A DNA stretch of 64,000 nucleotides. Origin: Cellulophaga sp. RHA19 (GTDB taxonomy: Bacteria > Bacteroidota > Bacteroidia > Flavobacteriales > Flavobacteriaceae). Below, in pieces: positions 13,364 to 37,205 of the stretch (positions within the stretch are counted from its first letter, which is position 1; each line of letters opens with the position of its first letter). The notes beneath the pieces were generated by a model. That model searched no databases. It saw only the letters and a list, made by a program, of their open reading frames with translations, and was not told where the DNA came from. A program made the position numbers and the translations under genes. Where the stretch lies: NCBI RefSeq assembly GCF_002813425.1, contig NZ_PHUL01000001.1, forward strand, positions 3,773,001 through 3,837,000, read 5' to 3'.

Positions 13364-14224
13364 CTACTTTGTAATAGCCTTTTGTACTTCCAATGCTCTA
13401 TCAGCAGCAAAAATATCAATTCCAAGTTTAGCCCATTCTTTATAAAGATGATCTCCTTTTGATGCGGCTTGTTTATCTAAGTTACCTAAAGTACCTAACA
13501 TACACATAACACCTTTTTCATGTAGTTTTTTATATAACAAAGGGTCAGATAACCTTGTTCCTGTAAAAGCAACCATATTTTTCCATGGTATACCAGAATT
13601 AGCTGCTCTGTTAAACTCTTCCATATTTCTAATACTAACAGATAGTACTACCTTAGGATTTAGTTTATATAGTTTTTGAGCTGTTTCCATTGAGTAGGTA
13701 ATTATGACCGACTGATTTAAAGCATTGTTTTCTTCTATAAAATGCAATACCTCTTCAGGGTCTACACTTCGTTTAATATCTACAGTAAGTATGGCATTAT
13801 CTTTTTTTGCCCAGTCTAGTACATCTTTAAATAACGGAATTTTAAAATCTACAATAGAGTCAAAATTATCTTTTAGTTTAAGTTTAGATAGCGCTTCCCA
13901 ATTGTTTTGGTCTACCCTACCAGATCCTGTAGATGTTCTATCTAACGCATTATCATGCATTAATAACAAAACTCCATCTTTACTTTTAGCCACATCAATT
14001 TCAAATAATGCATTAGGTATGTACTTTTTAATGTACTGCATTGTTTCTAAACAATTTTCTGGATAACCCACATAACCTTTTCCTCCACGGTGAGCACTAA
14101 CTAATAGCTCACGATTCTCTGCATAACTAAAGTAAGTTTGTAACGTTTTCTCCTGTATATTTTTTACTTTACACCCAATTAATAGAAATGAAATTAATAG
14201 AATAGGAATTAATAGTTTTTTCAT
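13364..14224 (-). CDS. Glycerophosphodiester phosphodiesterase, lipoprotein form
   Basis: 286 residues. The lipobox LIGC (Cys 18) is followed by the GDPD catalytic signature: SAHRGGKGYVGYPENCLETM (about residues 43-62), FEIDVAKSKDGVLLLMHD and LDRTSTGSG. The HRG, PEN, E-x-D and MHD..LDRT residues that bind the metal and phosphate are all present. A second conserved block is LTVDIKR near residue 148. It hydrolyses glycerophosphodiesters to glycerol-3-phosphate and an alcohol, here in the periplasm or at a membrane surface. Confidence 0.85.
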   Translation of the reverse strand: MKKLLIPILLISFLLIGCKVKNIQEKTLQTYFSYAENRELLVSAHRGGKGYVGYPENCLETMQYIKKYIPNALFEIDVAKSKDGVLLLMHDNALDRTSTGSGRVDQNNWEALSKLKLKDNFDSIVDFKIPLFKDVLDWAKKDNAILTVDIKRSVDPEEVLHFIEENNALNQSVIITYSMETAQKLYKLNPKVVLSVSIRNMEEFNRAANSGIPWKNMVAFTGTRLSDPLLYKKLHEKGVMCMLGTLGNLDKQAASKGDHLYKEWAKLGIDIFAADRALEVQKAITK

Positions 14225-14935: not shown

Positions 14936-15002
14936 AAAGTTAACATTATATATATTATGTTAAAAAAAAAAAATCTAAAAATGCTTTTTTAGAATAACTC
15001 AG

Positions 15003-15122
15003 CGTAAATTTTTCTATTGGTTTATTCTTTTTCTCCAAAGCTACCCCAGAGCATCGGTATAAATATATACACACCTTTGGGTTAAGTCCTAATGTCCTCA
15101 TTACGTTTAGGCCTTGTTAGCA
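15003..15122. repeat. Cassette-boundary element A
   Basis: AT-rich intergenic element ending in GCCTTGTTAGCA four bases before the stop codon of the next minus-strand gene. Read on the minus strand the gene's stop is followed by TGCTAACAAGGC, equivalent to the right-hand box of a cassette attachment site. It contains the inner inverted pair ACACCTTTGGGTTAAGTCCTAATG. No similarity in length to a coding region. Confidence 0.4.
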
Positions 15123-15126
15123 TTAG

Positions 15127-15492
15127 TTATTTTTTATACGCAATCAATTGTTTTTCTGTCAAATATGTTAAACTTTCATCCACATAGATTTCTCTAATTC
15201 CAATTCCAGAGAATAATTCCTGTAAAATTCTTTTTTCCACTTGGGAAAGCCCACCTTCTGACATTTCCATTTGTTGGATAATTCCAACCGAGTTTTTGGT
15301 AGAAAGTGCATTCTTTTTAAATACGCTACTTATAAATTTTTCAGCAGTATCAAAGTCCGCAATCAAGAGCCGCAGATTATTAAAATCCATTTGCGATTTA
15401 TCAGAAATAGATTTTTTATTTACTAAATCCCTGATTTCGATTCGATTTGTATATAATCTGATGTAGTATTTATTTTTACTAAATATTTTCAA
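15127..15492 (-). CDS. Hypothetical protein in a cassette-like unit
   Basis: 121 residues, no signal peptide or membrane segment. Notable stretches are IRLYTNRIEIRDLVNKKSIS, NNLRLLIADFDTAEKFI, IIQQMEMSEGGLSQVEKRILQELF and IREIYVDE. The order is reminiscent of actin-like/MreB-associated fragments, but I would not assign it. The unit is tightly bracketed: TGCTAAC lies directly after the stop (minus strand) and GTTAGTAC (15508-15515) sits 16 bases before the start. It could have been acquired as a single-gene cassette. Confidence 0.5.
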   Translation of the reverse strand: MKIFSKNKYYIRLYTNRIEIRDLVNKKSISDKSQMDFNNLRLLIADFDTAEKFISSVFKKNALSTKNSVGIIQQMEMSEGGLSQVEKRILQELFSGIGIREIYVDESLTYLTEKQLIAYKK

Positions 15493-15507
15493 TCTATTGT
15501 ATAATTG

Positions 15508-15650
15508 GTACTAACAGTCTCGTATTACCGTCAGTTACAGGTTTATATGCGTTAATATTCGGTTAGACACTGACTTTAGCAATTCCGAGTGGATTTAGAC
15601 ATAGTCTCCCAAATTGTAGGGATGCCGTAATTGAGGTTATACAGTGCTGG
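15508..15650. repeat. Cassette-boundary element B
   Basis: About 140 bp. It starts GTACTAACAGTCTCG and ends GGTTATACAGTGCTGG, with internal ACCGTCAGTTACAGG, TTAATATTCGG, TTTAGCAATTCCGAG and a weak TCTCCCAAATTGTAGGGA hairpin. It is about 85% identical by eye to element C (16315-16459). The outer ends are imperfect inverted repeats (GTATTACC / GGTTATAC). This is the form expected of an attC-like recombination site or another mobile intergenic element. Confidence 0.7.
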
Positions 15651-15678
15651 TATTTTGTTAATTGGATATTTCAGATGA

Positions 15679-16284
15679 TTATTGACTTTTTATCTTGTTT
15701 AGTTTCTCTTTTGTAAACTTAAAATCTTCACGACCATTGATGTGATTCAAGACCATTATAAATTGACTTTCATTCATTCTTCCTGCTTTATATTCTTTAG
15801 TAATTAATGGTTTTATTTCATTCCAATATTGATCTGGCGCATGCCTTAAAATCATAGCTGGAAATTGAGGTCCAACACAATTAGTAATGTCATTTGGAAA
15901 GCCTCTTTTTTTAATAATATCAATTAATAATTTCGTGTTTTTAATATCTAGTCCTTTTTGCAATTCCATAATAGAATCTTCTTGCTTTTCAGTAAAATTC
16001 TTTTTTTGCTTATTAGCAATGGCTCTCGCAATTTTTCCATATTTCAATTGTTTTTCCTCGGTAAAAGTTGCGTATTCTTTATCAGAAATACCATCTGCTT
16101 TTTTAATAGAATCTAAAATGTCAAAAAATGGATCAGCCATCATTTGCCTGTACTTTTGGTCATCCTCATAACTTTTTAAGACTAATTGACACAATTTGTC
16201 TTCATCCTTGTAATTCTCTTCTTTCCTATTACAATTAATTAAAATAAAGCTTAGAACTATAATTACTATTTTACCTAGTTTCAT
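15679..16284 (-). CDS. DUF6624-like lipoprotein
   Basis: 201 residues with an N-terminal lipobox (FILINC, Cys 18). The second half, KNTKLLIDIIKKRGFPN, then VGPQFPAMILRHAP and QFIMVLNHINGRED, follows the DUF6624 pattern (NT..L..II...G.P...VG......L..QHAD......L.DRI...G). Another DUF6624-like protein lies at 18382-19245. The gene is bracketed by elements B and C on the same strand as its neighbours, so it behaves as a cassette. Molecular function unknown. Confidence 0.6.
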   Translation of the reverse strand: MKLGKIVIIVLSFILINCNRKEENYKDEDKLCQLVLKSYEDDQKYRQMMADPFFDILDSIKKADGISDKEYATFTEEKQLKYGKIARAIANKQKKNFTEKQEDSIMELQKGLDIKNTKLLIDIIKKRGFPNDITNCVGPQFPAMILRHAPDQYWNEIKPLITKEYKAGRMNESQFIMVLNHINGREDFKFTKEKLNKIKSQ

Positions 16285-16314
16285 GTTTTTTTATGGTGTT
16301 CTTGAATTCAATGA

Positions 16315-16459
16315 ATGCCAACGGTCTCGTATAACCGTCAGTTAAAGGTTTATATGCGTTAATATTCGGTTTGGCACTGGCTTTAGCAATTCCGAGTGAA
16401 TTTGGAAATAGTCTCCCGAACTGTCGGGATGCCGTAATTGAGGTTATACATTGTTGTGT
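16315..16459. repeat. Cassette-boundary element C
   Basis: About 145 bp. It starts ATGCCAACGGTCTCGTATAACC and ends GGTTATACATTGTTGTGT. The termini pair as CAAC...GTATAACC / GGTTATAC...GTTG, and an internal perfect stem TCTCCCGA-ACTG-TCGGGA sits at about 16420-16437. Strongly similar to element B. The closing GTTGTGT is one base off the GTTRRRY consensus of integron attachment sites. Confidence 0.7.
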
Positions 16460-16467
16460 ATAGTTTT

Positions 16468-17031
16468 TTATCCATATTCAAACCAAATTGTTTCTGAATT
16501 TCGGTCAATTGCATAGTCAATAAATCTTTTGAAATTCCGCAAGTCTTGTCCAAAATTATTTCCAATATAACCTTCTCCTTTGTCTTTATTGAAGTCCGAA
16601 AAATAGTATTTAGAGTTCATTGAGTCAAAATCCGTTTTTATTAATCTTTCGTATAGATTATCAATGTTTTTCAGTTTATTGATTAAATTTTCTACAAGAA
16701 CTTTTACTTGGTTTATATTTCCATTTAAATCTTCTTTTCTCTTTTCTAAATCAGACTTTAAACGTTCCTTTTCTTCTTCATTTTCCGCAAACTCAATCAT
16801 ATCCACTTCTTCCTCTTCGCTTGGGTATTCTGTCATTTTGTACAAATGAGATATATTGATATTCGTTATTTCTCCAATTTGGTCAAATTCAGGTGTGTGT
16901 TCAACTACTCCTGGTCTGCACATTAGATTACAAAATTCCCTACTCAGAGAATAGAGATTGCTATTTTCAAAGTATTCTGACGTGATTACTTCACTATCAT
17001 TATTTACCCTTAAACTAATGTCTAATCCCAT
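16468..17031 (-). CDS. Hypothetical coiled-coil protein in a cassette-like unit
   Basis: 187 residues beginning MGLDISLRV, a start seen in a set of short uncharacterised bacterial proteins. Residues 75-125 are highly charged and helical (EFAENEEEKERLKSDLEKRK), probably a coiled coil. A C-terminal block follows, DFNKDKGEGYIGNNFGQDL ... ETIWFEYG. No signal peptide. It is bracketed by element C downstream (ACACAAC right after the stop on the minus strand) and element D upstream (GCACAAT). Unknown function. Confidence 0.5.
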   Translation of the reverse strand: MGLDISLRVNNDSEVITSEYFENSNLYSLSREFCNLMCRPGVVEHTPEFDQIGEITNINISHLYKMTEYPSEEEEVDMIEFAENEEEKERLKSDLEKRKEDLNGNINQVKVLVENLINKLKNIDNLYERLIKTDFDSMNSKYYFSDFNKDKGEGYIGNNFGQDLRNFKRFIDYAIDRNSETIWFEYG

Positions 17032-17044
17032 TTTCTCAAATTAT

Positions 17045-17241
17045 GCACAATGTCTCGGCTATGGTTAGTACGGGAATTAAAAAACGATTAATTTCCGATT
17101 TAGCACTTAGCCAAAACTTTTTATTTTGTTTTATCTTTTCTTTTTTAAAGCCAAATCAAAAGATTTGGCGGACTTGGTTAAAAGCACTATACTTTGGGTT
17201 AAGAACAAACGCCCTATGTTTTTTTTTATATATTGTTGTGT
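17045..17241. repeat. Cassette-boundary element D
   Basis: About 197 bp between two single genes. It starts GCACAATGTCTCGG and ends TATATTGTTGTGT, so its ends are inverted (CACAAT / ATTGTTGTG), and it shares the TCTCG near-end motif with B and C. It contains GCCAAATCAAAAGATTTGGC (a perfect hairpin with loop) and GGACTTGGTTAAAAGCACT. Both motifs recur in element F at 19264-19340. Short frames inside it look spurious. Confidence 0.6.
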
Positions 17242-17271
17242 GTTTTCGTATTTTTATGACAAATTAATATT

Positions 17272-17634
17272 CTATAAGTCACATTCAAAATTTTCAGGCT
17301 TCCAGATAATTGTTCCGTTTTGAAGAATATTAAATGGGATGTTTTCTTGATCTTTTCCTATAATCCCTATATTTTTTCCAGTACAATCTTTGACAGGAAT
17401 TACAGAGTTAATCCTAGGATTACAATTATTGAATATAAAGATAGTTTTATTTTCATATGTATTTTGAACAACTGACTCATATTTTCCAAGTGATTCAATT
17501 TCAGATTTTAGCCAATCTAAATCTTCAATAGGGTTTTCAGTAGAGCAAATTAATTCAGTGCTTTTATCATCATCACTATTTGAACAAGAGATGAATAATA
17601 TTAAACAAAATGATAAATAAATCAATGATTTCAT
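17272..17634 (-). CDS. Small lipoprotein
   Basis: 120 residues. The lipobox FISC (Cys 17) is followed by SNSDDDKS, the usual Asp/Ser-rich export signal of Bacteroidota surface lipoproteins. The mature part starts NPIEDLDWLKSEIESL, a motif frequent in small flavobacterial lipoproteins, and contains conserved-looking NNCNPRIN and DCTGKNIG (possible disulfide pair). Flanked by element D and by ACACAACTAGTTAG upstream, so probably another cassette gene. Function unknown. Confidence 0.55.
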   Translation of the reverse strand: MKSLIYLSFCLILFISCSNSDDDKSTELICSTENPIEDLDWLKSEIESLGKYESVVQNTYENKTIFIFNNCNPRINSVIPVKDCTGKNIGIIGKDQENIPFNILQNGTIIWKPENFECDL

Positions 17635-17687
17635 AAATATATAGTTTTCTTTAAGATGTTATTTTTTAAAATGGTTGCGCTAATGAA

Positions 17688-17805
17688 ACACAACTAGTTA
17701 GTAACAGCAATTAACTGCATTTATTCAGCCATATTGGAGGTATAAACACATAAAAAAAACTATGAACATATTTGCTTATGGGTTTAGTTCTCTTACTTGC
17801 TAAGG
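17688..17805. repeat. Cassette-boundary element E
   Basis: Begins with CACAACTAGTTAGTAAC (17689-17705), which recurs exactly at 19923-19939. It continues with GCATTTATTCAGCCATATTGG and GTATAAACACATA, closely similar to element H upstream of the second HEPN gene (38513-38550), where the two halves form a GCGTTTAT/ATAAACGC stem. Confidence 0.5.
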
Positions 17806-17811
17806 TTTAAA

Positions 17812-18360
17812 TTAGGTACTAGCTTTCTCATTTATATATTCTAAATAATCTTCTTCTAGCTTATCTATTTCTGCAATTAAAAAATCGTATATGTTACCTT
17901 CAAATATTTCAATATCAGTTTCGTCATATTTGTCGTGTTCTATGGTTATAACCCCATTATTTGTGTAAGCTCTATAGCCATTTCCTGTTTTCTTAAAAAA
18001 CATCTGCCCAAGGGTTTTCTCTTTACACTCTAATGCCTCTTGGTTTTTCTCTTCATAAGTCATCCAAGCTGGGGTATCTTCATCCATAGATAAACCGTAA
18101 ACAAAAAAGCCATACCCAAATTTCCAAGCAGGCATAACGTCATACATTTTTGGCCTTCTCCACACCTCTTCTTTCACTTCAAAAAGTAAGGTTCCAAATG
18201 TTATTAAAAAATCTTTTACATCTTCACTAAATACATAACCACTACTTTTTTCGTAAGCTAAAATTTGAGCTAAAGTTGAGGGGTTCTCTACAGAACCAAG
18301 TACTACAAAATCATCATTTAGTTTATTTTTACGCTCCCAAAAAGTTTCTTTAGTTGTCAT
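17812..18360 (-). CDS. SMI1/KNR4 (SUKH) family protein
   Basis: 182 residues, cytoplasmic. The order TLAQILAYEKSSGYVFSEDVKDFLITFGTL ... FVYGLSMDEDTPAWMTYEE ... GQMFFKKTGNGYRAYTNNGVITIEHD and a C-terminal IYDFLIAEIDKLEED fits the SUKH fold: an N-terminal helix that ends in a disordered-substrate clamp, then a beta sheet. In bacteria this superfamily is typically immunity to polymorphic or contact-dependent toxins (established for the superfamily). No toxin is adjacent, so an orphan immunity gene is the inference. It starts 21 bases after the next gene and may be co-transcribed with it. Confidence 0.65.
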   Translation of the reverse strand: MTTKETFWERKNKLNDDFVVLGSVENPSTLAQILAYEKSSGYVFSEDVKDFLITFGTLLFEVKEEVWRRPKMYDVMPAWKFGYGFFVYGLSMDEDTPAWMTYEEKNQEALECKEKTLGQMFFKKTGNGYRAYTNNGVITIEHDKYDETDIEIFEGNIYDFLIAEIDKLEEDYLEYINEKAST

Positions 18361-18381
18361 ATATTAATTTTACTTTGTTGC

Positions 18382-19245
18382 CTATAGTTTTATATAATTG
18401 GTTGGTAATTTAACTCCATAAACTTTTTCCATATACCATAACGGTGTAAGTCCATTTTCAGTTCTTCTTTTGTCGACATATTCTATATCTTTAATTGGAT
18501 ATTGGTCAAAGTAATTAAAATAAAGTCCATAAATCTGCTCTTTATTTTTAATTATAGATTGTTCTTCTTCAAACATTGTCCAAAAACTCTTTTTTATTTT
18601 ACCTTTTTGTATTTGTTCATTTATGTACGGTTTAAAAAAGTTCCAGACATAGTTATCTTGCCCATAAGTTCCTCGCTGATGCCAAAGTATTAGCCAGCCT
18701 TTACTCTGCCAGCCATATTGTTTCGTAATTTCAATTAAGCGTTTAACATTAGACGAATCAATTTGCATAATTTTGTATCTATCAGAGTCATTTTTTCTAA
18801 CTTTTTGGTCTATTTTAATCAAGCTGTCAATTTCTCGATAAATTTTAGGATGCTCTAATTCTTTATAGAAAATAGAAATATGCTTTTCATAATCTTTTTC
18901 AATTTCTGCGAACATACTCTGATCACGAAAATTGTTGAATTCTTCAAAATTCAGAAAGTAACTTTTAGAAGCATTTGTTTTGTGAATTGATGCAATTATT
19001 AATTCTTTGGCTTTTTCCAATTTACCAATATTTAATGCAGCTGCAACTGCATAAAAGTAAATTGTTACGTTTTCACTTGGTTTTAAATTAATTGCATTTT
19101 GGAAATTTAACAAAGCTTTTTCATATTCTTTGTCTTTAAATTGCAACATTGCTTTTTGCTCAAATTCATTATATATTTCAAATTCATTTTTGCTTTGGGC
19201 AAAACTTATAATTGTGAATAAAAAAAGTATGTATGTAATTCTCAT
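18382..19245 (-). CDS. Secreted TPR plus DUF6624-like protein
   Basis: 287 residues with a signal peptide (residues 1-17, ...SFAQS). Residues 25-110 form tetratricopeptide repeats (EQKAMLQFKDKEYEKALLNFQNAI, then AAALNIGKLEKAKELI). The C-terminal part (QIDSSNVKRLIEITKQYGW, then GWLILWHQRG, KPYINEQIQKG, YGLYFN, DIEYVDKRRTENGL) matches the DUF6624 order. It is the second DUF6624-like gene within 3 kb. TPRs suggest a protein partner outside the cytoplasm. Function unknown. Confidence 0.6.
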   Translation of the reverse strand: MRITYILFLFTIISFAQSKNEFEIYNEFEQKAMLQFKDKEYEKALLNFQNAINLKPSENVTIYFYAVAAALNIGKLEKAKELIIASIHKTNASKSYFLNFEEFNNFRDQSMFAEIEKDYEKHISIFYKELEHPKIYREIDSLIKIDQKVRKNDSDRYKIMQIDSSNVKRLIEITKQYGWQSKGWLILWHQRGTYGQDNYVWNFFKPYINEQIQKGKIKKSFWTMFEEEQSIIKNKEQIYGLYFNYFDQYPIKDIEYVDKRRTENGLTPLWYMEKVYGVKLPTNYIKL

Positions 19246-19263
19246 TGTTTTGTTTTTCTTTAT

Positions 19264-19340
19264 AAAGCCAAATCAATAAGATTTTGTGGGCTTGGTTAAA
19301 TGCACTAAAGTCCGTATTAAGTTTAGCTAGTGTTGTGGTA
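19264..19340. repeat. Cassette-boundary element F
   Basis: AAAGCCAAATCA-ATAAGATTTTG-GGCTTGGTTAAATGCACTAAAG repeats the inner part of element D. It ends with GTTGTGGTAG three bases before the next minus-strand gene's stop codon. That end pairs with GTAGCACAAC at 19919-19928 on the other side of the gene. Confidence 0.5.
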
Positions 19341-19342
19341 GG

Positions 19343-19906
19343 TTATTTTTTAAATGAATCAATAATTTCATTAGTATCTTTGAATTCCATTTCAATAAAA
19401 AAATTATCCATTAGTGAGTGAATCATACTTGTATAATCATAAAATACATTTTTTAATATATCGAATTCTACTTTTGTTGCAATTATTATGTCTTTTGAGT
19501 TTTTTGGGTGAATAAGTTTATCTCGTTTTCCTTTTATTTTTTTTAAGTTTCCATATTTTGAATCAAGATATTTTTTAAAGATTTCATCTTTGCCCCATGT
19601 CTTACATATTTGTTTGAATGTTTTTTTGAATTTATCCTGAAAACAATCATTATCTTTATAATCTTTGTATTTGTCAATTTCATTTAATCCGAAAATGCCA
19701 GACTCAATAAGTGATAAGATTCCTTTTAAAGACGCTCTGTATAGGGTGTTAAATTTTTCAGAATCATTAATATTTTCTTCTGTAATTTTGAGAAGTAATT
19801 CAAAATCTTTTCGAATAATATTATGCCTTTTTTGATATTCTCTAAAAGAAAACGAAGCTTTTTTAAATTCAGCTATATCATTAAATTCCTTAGAATGTTC
19901 TTTCAT
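19343..19906 (-). CDS. HEPN-like putative RNase in a cassette-like unit
   Basis: About 187 residues from the ATG at 19906; the frame could extend with a TTG to 19927, but that lies inside the flanking GTAGCACAAC box. The protein is all-helical, basic and has no signal peptide. Residues 128-133 (in KGKRDKLIHPKN) form an R-x4-H motif, the catalytic signature of HEPN ribonucleases, placed as usual near the end of a helix in the C-terminal half. HEPN proteins frequently act as toxins or anti-phage effectors. No antitoxin partner is adjacent. The family call is inference from motif and helix content. Confidence 0.5.
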   Translation of the reverse strand: MKEHSKEFNDIAEFKKASFSFREYQKRHNIIRKDFELLLKITEENINDSEKFNTLYRASLKGILSLIESGIFGLNEIDKYKDYKDNDCFQDKFKKTFKQICKTWGKDEIFKKYLDSKYGNLKKIKGKRDKLIHPKNSKDIIIATKVEFDILKNVFYDYTSMIHSLMDNFFIEMEFKDTNEIIDSFKK

Positions 19907-19952
19907 CTTGATTTTTTTGTAGCACAACTAGTTAGTAACCGCACCAATTACA

Positions 19953-20008
19953 TTTTTCCTACAATATAAAACCATTTTTCATAGTACAATTACGTAAATG
20001 TGTAATTG
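19953..20008 (-). promoter_or_regulatory. Palindrome-controlled promoter, copy 1
   Basis: Reading on the minus strand: palindrome CAATTACAC-N4-ACGTAATTG (20008-19987) whose final TTG serves as the -33, an 18-base spacer TACTATGAAAAATGGTTT, then TATATTG as -7. The start codon of the HEPN-like gene is about 50 bases downstream. Same architecture as at 21535-21590, 38570-38625 and 38833-38889. Confidence 0.6.
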
Positions 20009-20033
20009 GATTAAAAGTGAGTATAAATGACAC

Positions 20034-20062
20034 AAAAAAACCCATAACATACAGTTATGGGT
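20034..20062 (-). terminator. Intrinsic terminator
   Basis: Stem ACCCATAAC / GTTATGGGT with loop ATACA, followed on the minus strand by TTTTTTTGTGTC. It ends the transcript of the 20141-20914 gene and directly precedes the palindromic promoter. Confidence 0.8.
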
Positions 20063-20140
20063 CTTGTTAGTATGTCCATACTAATAAAATATTAAGCTAT
20101 TTTATAGGGTTAATCTGTTTCACTTAAAGATAAATATTTT

Positions 20141-21534: not shown

Positions 21535-21590
21535 ATTTTCTCACAATGTAAAACCAATTTTAGTAGTACAATTACGGGAATCCGTAATTG
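21535..21590 (-). promoter_or_regulatory. Palindrome-controlled promoter, copy 2
   Basis: The best palindrome of the set, CAATTACGG-N4-CCGTAATTG (21569-21590). On the minus strand its last TTG is followed by 18 bases (TACTACTAAAATTGGTTT) and TACATTG. The predicted start point is about 55 bases upstream of the outer-membrane-like gene. Confidence 0.65.
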
Positions 21591-21614
21591 GGTTAAAAAA
21601 GAGTATAAATGGCA

Positions 21615-21647
21615 CAAAAAAACCCGTAACATACAGTTACGGGTTTT
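21615..21647 (-). terminator. Intrinsic terminator
   Basis: Stem AAACCCGTAAC / GTTACGGGTTT with loop ATACA and T-runs on both strands. It ends the PepSY reductase transcript. Confidence 0.85.
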
Positions 21648-21656
21648 AATTTGTTT

Positions 21657-23858
21657 TTAATAGCAGTCCATTAAAATATGGCCTTTGTTTTGGTAGTAAC
21701 TTAATGGCTTTTTTAGGTGGTTTTTACAAATGGTATCTAAAATCGTAGTAACTTCTTTTTGCATACTTATAGAGCCGCAAATTAAAATATAGCCTTTATT
21801 TTTAATAAGTTGGGCAACTTCTTTACCATTTGCCTCTAACAGGTTTTGTACATATACTTTTTGGGCTTGTTCTCTAGACAATGCCAAATGTAAAGAGGTT
21901 AGTTTGCCTGCCTGCTGTTGTTCTTCTAATTGGTTTTTGTACAGCTCAAAAGATGCTGCTGTACGCCCACCCCAATACAGGTGTAATTTTTTGTGTGCTG
22001 TGTTTTGGCGTATCATCCCTAAATAAGGACCAATACCTGTACCAGTTGCTATTAACAGGGCTTTTTTTGCTTTTTTAGGCAAATGAAACGCTTTGTTTTT
22101 TACTATTCCACAGCTTATTTTGTTACCCACAGCAAGGTTTTGTAACCTATTAGATACACTGCCTTTTTGGTGACGTTTAACGCTTATAACAAGCTCGTTT
22201 TTATCCCATTTACCAATAGAGTACAATCGTTCTCTTTGGTCTTTTTCGCCCAAAATAGAGAGTAAATCTCCAGAGGTAAACTTCACTTTTTCTACTGGTT
22301 TTAAGTATATACAAAAAGTATCGTCCGGATTATTTTCTGCCTTGGTGTGTTTGGTTACGGTAAAAGTATAGGTTTTACGTTTCTTTTTACCACCAATGGC
22401 TTTAGGTAAACTTATATTTAAATTTTCTTGCTTACTCCACGCTAACAACCACTGATTAAAAGACTCTAAACTTTGGTTGTTTATGGTAAACACATCTGCC
22501 AAACGGTTATTGTTGGGGTGTGCTTGCAACATAGTATCTACATCATAAGCAAATTTGCAATAGTCTGGGTATGCTAAAGAGCCAAAACCTACAACCGAGT
22601 AGTTAAACTTTGCACCTTGCTGGTGTGTGTTTAAAAGTGCTTTAAACTTTTTGGCATTTGTTGGCGCTTCTCCTGTACCGTAGGTAGATGTCATGACCAC
22701 CAAATGCTGCATATTTTTATAGCTCTTGTAGCTGTTTAGTTCTGCTAAATATGCTTTTTTACCCAAACGCAGTAACTCCGAGTATAATGCGTTGGCAAAA
22801 TAAAAGGTGTTTCCGTTTTCAGATCCTATAAGAATAACATAATCACAGTCGTCCTTTTTGTATTTGTTTTTAATTCTAGATTTTCTACGTTGCAACGTTA
22901 TGCTAAAGCCCGAATACATAAAAAACAAAATACCAATAGAAGCCAATAACAAAACTATACTCCATACTATACTCCCCTGCCCTGTATGAAAAAGTGTGCT
23001 GTAATACGTTAATATTACATAAAACGGATAGTTAACCTGACTAACAATATCACCATTAAATTGGTTTACTAAATACTCCTTGTCTGTTAATTGTAGTAAA
23101 AAGTAACTTTCTGGAAAAGGCGCAAAAGGATATTCTATTTTACGAACCTGGGATAATTTAGTGTCTTTAAAAACTTTAAAATCTGCTACAGGAATAACTG
23201 GTTCTTCTGCAAACAAGGTATCTTCTTGGTGTACTATTTTGGCAGATGGCAGTACAGAAAATTGTTCTAGAGATAAATACACGCCTGTTAGCGTTATAAC
23301 TAAAATAGGAATTAGCAACCATTTACCAAAAAGAGTATGGTAATACGGATTAAAGTTTTCTTTAACTATAGGTTTAAAAAAGCCTTTAACACCACCTTGC
23401 TTTTTTAAAATTAGAAAAATACCGCTAATGCTTATTAAACATAGTAAAAATGAAGATAAACCTACAAAAAACCTACCTATCCCTTTTAAAAATAAGGAAC
23501 GATGTAATGTGGTTGCGAACTTAAAAACTGCGCTAGACTCTTTAGGTATGCCTAAACTATCTCCTGTTTTTGGGTTAACGTAAATAATTTTATCGGTACC
23601 ATCTTTGTCTATTACTGATGCAGTAACCCAATCATTTTTATCAATTTCTACAGAAATAACCTCTGCATACTTTTGCTGTAATGTGCTTGTAAATTCTGCA
23701 ACGGTAACTTGGTCTAAATCTCCCGTAGTATATGGCTGTATGCGATTGCTAATTGGCTCTAACGCTAATACAGAACCCGTTACAGCTGCCAATAAAATAA
23801 AAATAGAAGAAGATACAGCCAACACAAGGTGACTGTATCTCCAAACTGATAATGTCAT
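21657..23858 (-). CDS. PepSY-type membrane protein fused to flavodoxin and FAD/NADPH reductase domains
   Basis: 733 residues. Residues 1-330 form a PepSY-TM unit with helices near 12-35, 128-152, 175-196 and 298-320, and a PepSY segment between. Residues 338-480 are a flavodoxin domain (LIGSENGNTFYFANAL; MTSTYGTGEAPTNA; VGFGSLAYPDYC). Residues 500-733 are a cytochrome-P450-reductase/FNR-like FAD and NADPH module (RLYSIGK; LIATGTGIGPYLG; LYWGGRT; YILICGS; end GHILMDCY). Expected role: pass electrons from cytosolic NADPH across the inner membrane to a periplasmic acceptor such as the flavinylated DUF2271 protein encoded 7 bases upstream, possibly for ferric-siderophore reduction. Confidence 0.85.
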   Translation of the reverse strand: MTLSVWRYSHLVLAVSSSIFILLAAVTGSVLALEPISNRIQPYTTGDLDQVTVAEFTSTLQQKYAEVISVEIDKNDWVTASVIDKDGTDKIIYVNPKTGDSLGIPKESSAVFKFATTLHRSLFLKGIGRFFVGLSSFLLCLISISGIFLILKKQGGVKGFFKPIVKENFNPYYHTLFGKWLLIPILVITLTGVYLSLEQFSVLPSAKIVHQEDTLFAEEPVIPVADFKVFKDTKLSQVRKIEYPFAPFPESYFLLQLTDKEYLVNQFNGDIVSQVNYPFYVILTYYSTLFHTGQGSIVWSIVLLLASIGILFFMYSGFSITLQRRKSRIKNKYKKDDCDYVILIGSENGNTFYFANALYSELLRLGKKAYLAELNSYKSYKNMQHLVVMTSTYGTGEAPTNAKKFKALLNTHQQGAKFNYSVVGFGSLAYPDYCKFAYDVDTMLQAHPNNNRLADVFTINNQSLESFNQWLLAWSKQENLNISLPKAIGGKKKRKTYTFTVTKHTKAENNPDDTFCIYLKPVEKVKFTSGDLLSILGEKDQRERLYSIGKWDKNELVISVKRHQKGSVSNRLQNLAVGNKISCGIVKNKAFHLPKKAKKALLIATGTGIGPYLGMIRQNTAHKKLHLYWGGRTAASFELYKNQLEEQQQAGKLTSLHLALSREQAQKVYVQNLLEANGKEVAQLIKNKGYILICGSISMQKEVTTILDTICKNHLKKPLSYYQNKGHILMDCY

Positions 23859-37059: not shown

Positions 37060-37205
37060 GTACAACGTATTTGTATATAGTTAGTGCGTGGTTAAGCACC
37101 TAATTTAGCAAATACAAACCGAATGGAAAATCCGCTATTCCCAAAGCTTAAGAATTCGTAAGTAAGCTATAACTAGCAATAAATTATATGCGTTGTTAGC
37201 ACAAG
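37060..37205. repeat. Cassette-boundary element G
   Basis: About 145 bp downstream of the second HEPN gene (3' side). It starts GTACAACGTATTTGTATATAG and ends TATATGCGTTGTTAGCACAAG; the ends pair as ACAACG / CGTTGT. Its closing GTTAGCACAA (37195-37204) is the inverted partner of TTGTGCTAAC at 38483-38492 on the other side of the gene. The CDS stop lies 4 bases further. Confidence 0.65.

Follow-up and report, generated by a model that had tools for sequence, protein, structure and literature searches.

What separates the genes of a short minus-strand array in the chromosome of Cellulophaga sp. RHA19, and how did those genes come to lie side by side? The array stands in a stretch of 64 kb (C1:3773001-3837000 of the single 3.93 Mb contig), called the window here, in which boundary elements A-F are interspersed among consecutive minus-strand genes from 15127 to 19927. 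A sequence-only reading had taken it for an integron-like array of the CALIN type (an attC array lacking an integrase). Our analysis indicates that the elements are very probably attC-like sites of an integron-like system of Bacteroidota, the recombinase of which lacks the I2 insert of the integron integrase IntI, and that the window holds a decayed part of that system. It works like an integron; given that the IntI insert is absent and the box consensus is not followed, it falls outside the integron family as defined.

The arrangement of single genes and boundary elements was confirmed, as were the complementary boxes, the inverted GTATAACC/GGTTATAC arms and the TCTCCCGA hairpin. Element B (15511-15651) aligns with C (16317-16457) over 137 nt at 90% identity, so that their reported similarity holds at a higher figure than the 85% or so first given, and D (17045-17240) has with the partial F (19249-19337) a common segment of 68 nt at 72% identity. 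The motif CACAACAAT-N0-4-TATAA is present in two copies, with 0.03 expected from shuffles; a 16-mer search with three mismatches was far less informative (4 matches, 1.6 expected). The window encodes no tyrosine recombinase: all four of the genome's PF00589 matches lie elsewhere, in agreement with the reported lack of an integrase.

Three site profiles were built from the genome's own elements and used in place of a generic inverted-repeat attC detector, which was dropped because shuffled sequence scored about equally. In the window, the profiles matched A, B, C, D, half of F and a lone site at 37061-37199. Element E and the box at 19919-19928 gave no match to them; their support comes from boxes and a 22-nt direct repeat. 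In the examined stretches of the genome we detected 88 sites, forming eight arrays and three lone sites, with a single strand per array; some of these stretches were indicated by a whole-genome model that scores sequence only, since it was built without structure, and sites of other classes outside them would escape. A search of Rfam returned nothing at gathering scores. Relatives of element C are found elsewhere in the genome, the clearest of them at 744-746 kb and 1386 kb, and at 742-754 kb same-strand genes are each followed by an element of the form NNNYAAC-AAT-GTATAA ... TTATAC-GAGACC-GTTRNNN. Arrays early in the chromosome (C1:412183-753749) are on the plus strand and later ones (C1:1349954-1389765 and 3552259-3810199) on the minus strand, the sole exception being a lone plus-strand site at 2830797. 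One attC-like site is split by a gene for a 332-aa (amino acid) transposase, IS110-like by reading (L032:5062-6330, that is, C1:731062-732330), with R'' preceding the gene and the rest of the site following it; a 98% identical copy at C1:1373425-1374765, in another array, also adjoins a site.

Other evidence concerns the units that the sites delimit. An inverted pair, GTTNNNNNNN...NNNNNNNAAC, brackets each cassette. If a cassette is circular, the GTT box that opens it adjoins its own site, so R'' should pair with that start box and not with the box downstream. Among 177 neighbouring sites in which both boxes were found, a set unselected for brackets, R'' matched the start box of its own cassette at a mean of 5.84 of the seven variable bases, compared with 2.78 for the downstream box. 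The start box paired better in 153 cases, equally in 10 and worse in 14, and at least six of the seven bases paired in 139/177 against 6/177. In the first site set, a run of at least 9 bp linked R'' to the start box in 50/77 sites, to the downstream box in 1/77 and to randomly assigned boxes in 1.2%. An AAC box was present in 266 of 290 sites, and 209 of these 266 had a bracket of at least 9 bp, compared with 11.4 when boxes were borrowed from other sites. The median cassette measures 813 bp (n=190). In bracketed cassettes of up to 2.5 kb, the longest open reading frame (ORF) was on the array strand in 176, on the opposite strand in 19 and absent in 9, with a median ORF coverage of 92% and a median length of 195 aa for array-strand ORFs.

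Duplicated segments bear on where these units begin and end. Three of eight duplicated blocks have both ends at GTT, within two shared bases: an 849-bp identical copy (L074) and two pairs of about 475 bp (L090), each with one copy starting directly 3' of the recombinase gene described below. Between this genome and Algibacter onchidii (L130), a cassette is 95% identical over 831 bp and starts at the same GTT, with unlike sequences upstream. As in integrons, crossover probably falls within the GTT of the R' box, and the cassettes are probably circular when they move. In L090:10123-15926, a cassette of about 475 bp is present in four near-identical copies within 6 kb, of which the first occupies the attI-like position; either repeated insertion or duplication may be the cause.

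The sites have the R''-L''...L'-R' layout of attC, a hairpin with an unpaired central spacer. That spacer is mostly 3 nt on one side and 5-6 nt on the other in classes I and III, and 5 and 7-8 nt in class II. GTT and AAC were prerequisites when the boxes were picked; the core boxes read GTTR (249/256) and YAAC (253/266), combined with the 10-bp pairing rule. The likeness to GTTRRRY and RYYYAAC seen by the sequence-only reading did not extend further, since only 10/256 R' boxes and 12/266 R'' boxes fit this integron consensus. The R-stem pairs in the fold and covariation sets were selected by construction and the L stems were not. Given that sites were chosen for their bracket, the R-stem pairs and part of the stability relative to shuffles come from selection, and we rely on the unselected test of 177 sites. 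The L stems covary; in classes I and II no pair has G-U in more than 3% of its cells, a pattern that fits pairing in DNA better than pairing in RNA. Calculated with DNA parameters for bracketed sites in the circular form, the bottom strand folds more stably than the top in 173/184 sites (96/98, 63/72 and 14/14 in the three classes), and it is probably this folded strand that the recombinase acts upon. The L'' arm is longer by one base in only 4/98, 0/72 and 0/14 sites, and the opposite arm in 27/98, 2/72 and 8/14, so the extrahelical base of attC has no conserved counterpart here. According to a passage of Bouvier et al. (PMC2727003), the marks of attC are the spacer and the extrahelical bases on the R''-L'' arm, and a passage of Escudero et al. 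(PMC4792948) states that the I2 domain accommodates extrahelical bases. The I2 insert and a conserved extra base on L'' are jointly absent from the present system.

The largest array of the genome, at 730-754 kb, is headed by a tyrosine recombinase gene (C1:728853-729739); of the other three PF00589 matches, one is XerD-like, one is XerC-like and the third lies at 988 kb. The recombinase has a match in each of the 18 genomes of the genus (counting this one), and the four nearest relatives have it as one open frame of 305 codons. Matches were found in 99/149 genomes of the window's family and in 98/296 genomes of the phylum (66/140 genera), counts that refer to the recombinase and not to arrays, which were checked in far fewer genomes. 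Of 20 family loci fetched, 15 have profile sites downstream on the recombinase strand, and three of the five others have less than 0.9 kb left; in L090, one weak profile match lies upstream. Chained brackets, detected without any motif in loci with at least 1 kb downstream, numbered 55 on the downstream side and 0 on the upstream side across 16 family loci (12 with any), and 23 downstream and 0 upstream in 32 Bacteroidota loci (11 with any) among the named loci, which are the best 80 among the matches listed. No chained bracket was found on either side in 30 loci of other phyla. Single brackets are ubiquitous at a low rate (0.04-0.09 per kb). Considering this one-sided arrangement, we take the adjacent recombinase to be the probable catalyst. 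Recombinases of about 375 aa are numerous and have some 100 additional residues at the N-terminus (e.g. L085:8979-10106), a stretch that had no Pfam match in the two such proteins scanned (L085 and L093).

Directly 3' of the recombinase gene, 22/31 family loci contain an inverted repeat followed by GTT (arms of at least 9 with one mismatch allowed, a loop of up to 8, and GTT 2-8 nt further on). The symmetry of this attI-like repeat is kept among genomes and its sequence varies. In 10/14 loci the first site has its best bracket partner in the GTT that follows the repeat, with 8-10 of 10 bases paired, two of the ten having repeat arms of 7-8. The system thus has, as integrons do, an attI-like site beside the recombinase gene. 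In 12/31 family loci the motif TAnnTTTG, which we take to be the Bacteroidota promoter element, lies 46-56 nt 5' of the attI GTT, and this predicted promoter may be functional. The contig L127, labelled Deltaproteobacteria, encodes a recombinase relative (52% identity in the best segment), followed by an attI-like palindrome and GTT; either transfer or a binning error could account for this.

These features suggest the following mechanism. A tyrosine recombinase without the I2 insert would recombine circular, mostly single-gene cassettes at hairpin sites of the form R''-L''...L'-R', with a 10-bp R stem, an unpaired spacer shorter on the R''-L'' side, and an L stem whose L'' arm has no conserved extra base. 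Insertion would target the attI-like site, in many cases a palindrome with GTT after it, directly 3' of the recombinase gene, the crossover point being the GTT of the R' box. Cassettes and recombinase gene would be on one strand, and the first cassettes may be driven by a promoter 5' of attI.

An alternative is that the array is a CALIN of an ordinary integron, its sites being canonical attC sites and a true IntI, located elsewhere or formerly present, having built the arrays. Integron-like features are the R''-L''...L'-R' layout, the crossover at GTT and the plan of the arrays; the short sites of Rufibacter resemble textbook attC, and integrons or intI are reported from Bacteroidota, in general terms, in passages of PMC9668308, PMC8618304 and PMC2426708. 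What remains of the CALIN proposal is an attC-like single-gene array without an adjoining integrase; it is not simply the CALIN of a canonical integron, because the genome has a matching, broken recombinase at the head of its largest array, and this belongs to a family without the IntI insert. From KGxKDR to HxLRH there are 58-59 residues in 20/20 family recombinases and 58-63 in 14/14 from named Bacteroidota loci, compared with 100 in 10/10 IntI (5/15 IntI loci yielded no sequence), so that the I2 insert of about 42 residues is lacking. It is also absent from eleven recombinases measured in other phyla (56-65 residues), and its absence is therefore the ordinary Xer state. Against TIGR02249 (cut-off 265), four recombinases reached 177-211 bits in two stretches and IntI 481 bits in one, and the top curated model for every full-length recombinase scanned was the XerA-like NF040815. 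An IntI above the cut-off was found in 0/149 genomes of the window's family, whereas the same search detected it in the control genome and in 27/60 genomes of its order, a known host order. In a recombinase tree of 59 rows, made with a quick method and including 9 of the 10 IntI, these IntI form one clade apart from the Bacteroidota rows, with a support of 100 in the Shimodaira-Hasegawa-like approximate likelihood ratio test; given the open backbone and the long branches flagged, the tree does not give the order of origin. The missing insert, the lack of an IntI above the cut-off in the family, the few R' boxes fitting GTTRRRY and the L'' arm without a conserved extra base make an ordinary CALIN improbable. 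A passage of Smyshlyaev et al. (PMC8138268) describes an integron-like subgroup in which the insert is incompletely conserved, yet calls it essential for integron function; the present recombinase family may overlap with that subgroup. It is possible, although rather doubtful, that we are dealing with a second kind of integron in Bacteroidota, with an integrase that never had I2 and folded sites without extrahelical bases, either as a survivor of the pre-I2 stage that has been postulated in integron evolution or as an independent invention of the same scheme from a Xer-like enzyme.

Several observations weigh against an integron-like system run by its own I2-less recombinase. The gene in this genome is broken into two overlapping ORFs (142 and 162 aa) in different frames, and two family loci (L076 and L086) have room downstream and no profile site. 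Among the named Bacteroidota loci, 21/32 have no chained bracket, many of them on short contigs. The inverted repeat with GTT was present in only 13/45 testable named loci labelled Bacteroidota or unlabelled (2/31 of those with other labels). Five of the eight duplicated blocks lack GTT at one or both ends (three have it at the right end only, two at neither), and matches between genomes end near GTT at 5/24 left and 5/24 right ends, a modest signal, with 1.5% and 2.2% expected by chance. Recombination itself is read from sequence, and host Xer recombinases may be the catalysts. If XerC and XerD moved the cassettes, as in Xer-exploiting elements, the adjacent recombinase would be a passenger or a regulator; XerC-like and XerD-like genes are indeed present, and the array recombinase is itself Xer-like, but the arrays begin directly 3' of this recombinase and nowhere else in the same loci, with the attI-like site at that very position, which makes this explanation very unlikely. 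That the elements are non-recombining intergenic repeats spread by transposition, such as repetitive extragenic palindromes (REP), miniature inverted-repeat transposable elements (MITE) or terminator-like sequences, is hardly credible, for although they are repeated, structured and intergenic, the bracket rule contradicts it by joining the ends of a gene-plus-site unit and not those of an element, each array keeps to one strand, and duplicated units include genes.

Within the integron-like system favoured here, the window array (14951-19937) appears, from its sequence, to be a detached and decaying part. The five window brackets pair at 7, 7, 8, 8 and 8 of 10 bases, compared with a mean of 5.6 across all 25 box combinations; this low pairing, the ATT in D, the AGC in B and the truncation of F are the reasons for considering the copy decayed (Table 1). 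The flanks at 13364-14224 and 21657-23858, which we read from the sequence as phosphodiesterase-like and flavoprotein reductase-like genes, enclose ten genes, none of which passes the Pfam cut-off (one has two weak matches). Two relatives have both flanks (the contig of another, G160, is short). In G154 the flanks are 94-95% identical and one of the ten genes is retained, and in G151 none is (tblastn, E 1e-5). Gene differences between conserved flanks had been proposed as a check and were found; this gene content points to the gain and loss of cassettes between relatives that is typical of integrons. In G150, 29 profile matches (one weak) extend from the recombinase at 1685 kb to the phosphodiesterase gene at 1655 kb, and the reductase gene was not found within the 38 kb read. 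The phosphodiesterase gene is present in 7/40 relatives, the window genome counted.

Table 1. Sites and genes of the cassette array and the lone site (window positions; pairing is given as bases out of 10)
Feature	Position	Strand	Details
Element A, attC-like, class II, weak	14951-15125	-	R'' 15116-15125; profile match 14951-15121, E 1e-17; R'' pairs 7/10 with start box of own cassette
Cassette gene, 121 aa, TTG start	15127-15492	-	no Pfam match
Element B, attC-like, class III	15506-15655	-	R' 15506-15515, R'' 15646-15655; profile match 15511-15651; AAC of R'' lost, reads AGC; bracket pairing 7/10
Cassette gene, 201 aa	15679-16284	-	no Pfam match
Element C, attC-like, class III	16313-16462	-	R' 16313-16322, R'' 16453-16462; profile match 16317-16457; pairing 8/10
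Cassette gene, 187 aa	16468-17031	-	no Pfam match
Element D, attC-like, class II	17042-17244	-	R' 17042-17051, R'' 17235-17244; profile match 17045-17240, E 5e-44; R' has ATT instead of GTT; bracket pairing 8/10
Cassette gene, 120 aa	17272-17634	-	no Pfam match
Element E, probable degenerate site, limits uncertain	17685-17811	-	R' 17685-17694, pairs 8/10 with R'' of D; 22 nt in common with 19922-19943
Gene, 182 aa	17812-18360	-	the only one of the ten retained between the flanks in G154, 92% identity
Gene, 287 aa	18382-19245	-	weak matches, below threshold, to DUF6624 and TPR
Element F, truncated, class II	19249-19341	-	R'' 19332-19341; R' side gone; profile match 19249-19337, E 7e-9, covering model 2-112 only; pairing 8/10
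Cassette gene, 194 aa, TTG start	19343-19927	-	no Pfam match
R' (GTT) box	19919-19928	-	opens the cassette of gene 19343-19927
Lone attC-like site, class I	37061-37199	-	E 9e-28; also found by whole-genome model search

No further site was found in the window near the lone one. Outside the cassette array, a 112-nt repeat (85% identity) is located 3' of two neighbouring genes, at 19954-20065 and 21536-21647, and carries a terminator-like hairpin, AACCCGTAAC...GTTACGGG, followed by T.

In the open-licence literature searched, which excludes subscription papers and preprints, we found no recognised description of this system. IntegronFinder 2.0, in a passage of PMC9024848, names Salinibacter ruber M1 as its complete Bacteroidetes integron. 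Compared with CALIN, the window and seven other stretches likewise contain clusters of sites without an intact recombinase, the window holding several sites of its own kind; CALIN, however, are defined by canonical attC models, as at least two attC within 4 kb with no intI, whereas the sites here are known by profiles from their own genome and the related recombinase is not IntI. With XerA and XerC/XerD the array recombinases share the best-matching model and the lack of I2. The site of CTXphi, according to a passage of PMC4792948, has a stem without extrahelical bases, and CTXphi relies on the XerCD of the host, whereas here a recombinase gene heads long cassette arrays. In Treponema integrons, the integrase genes are co-directional according to a passage of PMC3607928; those integrons carry intI, and the IntI insert is absent here. 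The closest likeness is to chromosomal integrons, which also have tandem, mostly single-gene cassettes, paired R and L boxes around a variable middle, crossover at GTT, an insertion site beside the recombinase and a favoured bottom-strand fold; the present system differs in lacking I2 and a conserved extra base on L'', in its GTTR/YAAC boxes and in an attI that is often a palindrome. Other Bacteroidota have similar arrays, and an enzyme part long deemed essential may therefore not be required for such gene capture. In a passage of Escudero et al. (PMC4792948), I2 is described as unseen in other recombinases and its acquisition by a Xer-like ancestor is imagined; if the present system works without I2 and extrahelical bases, that step becomes open to experiment, and a cassette pool would be opened that attC models with canonical boxes may miss.

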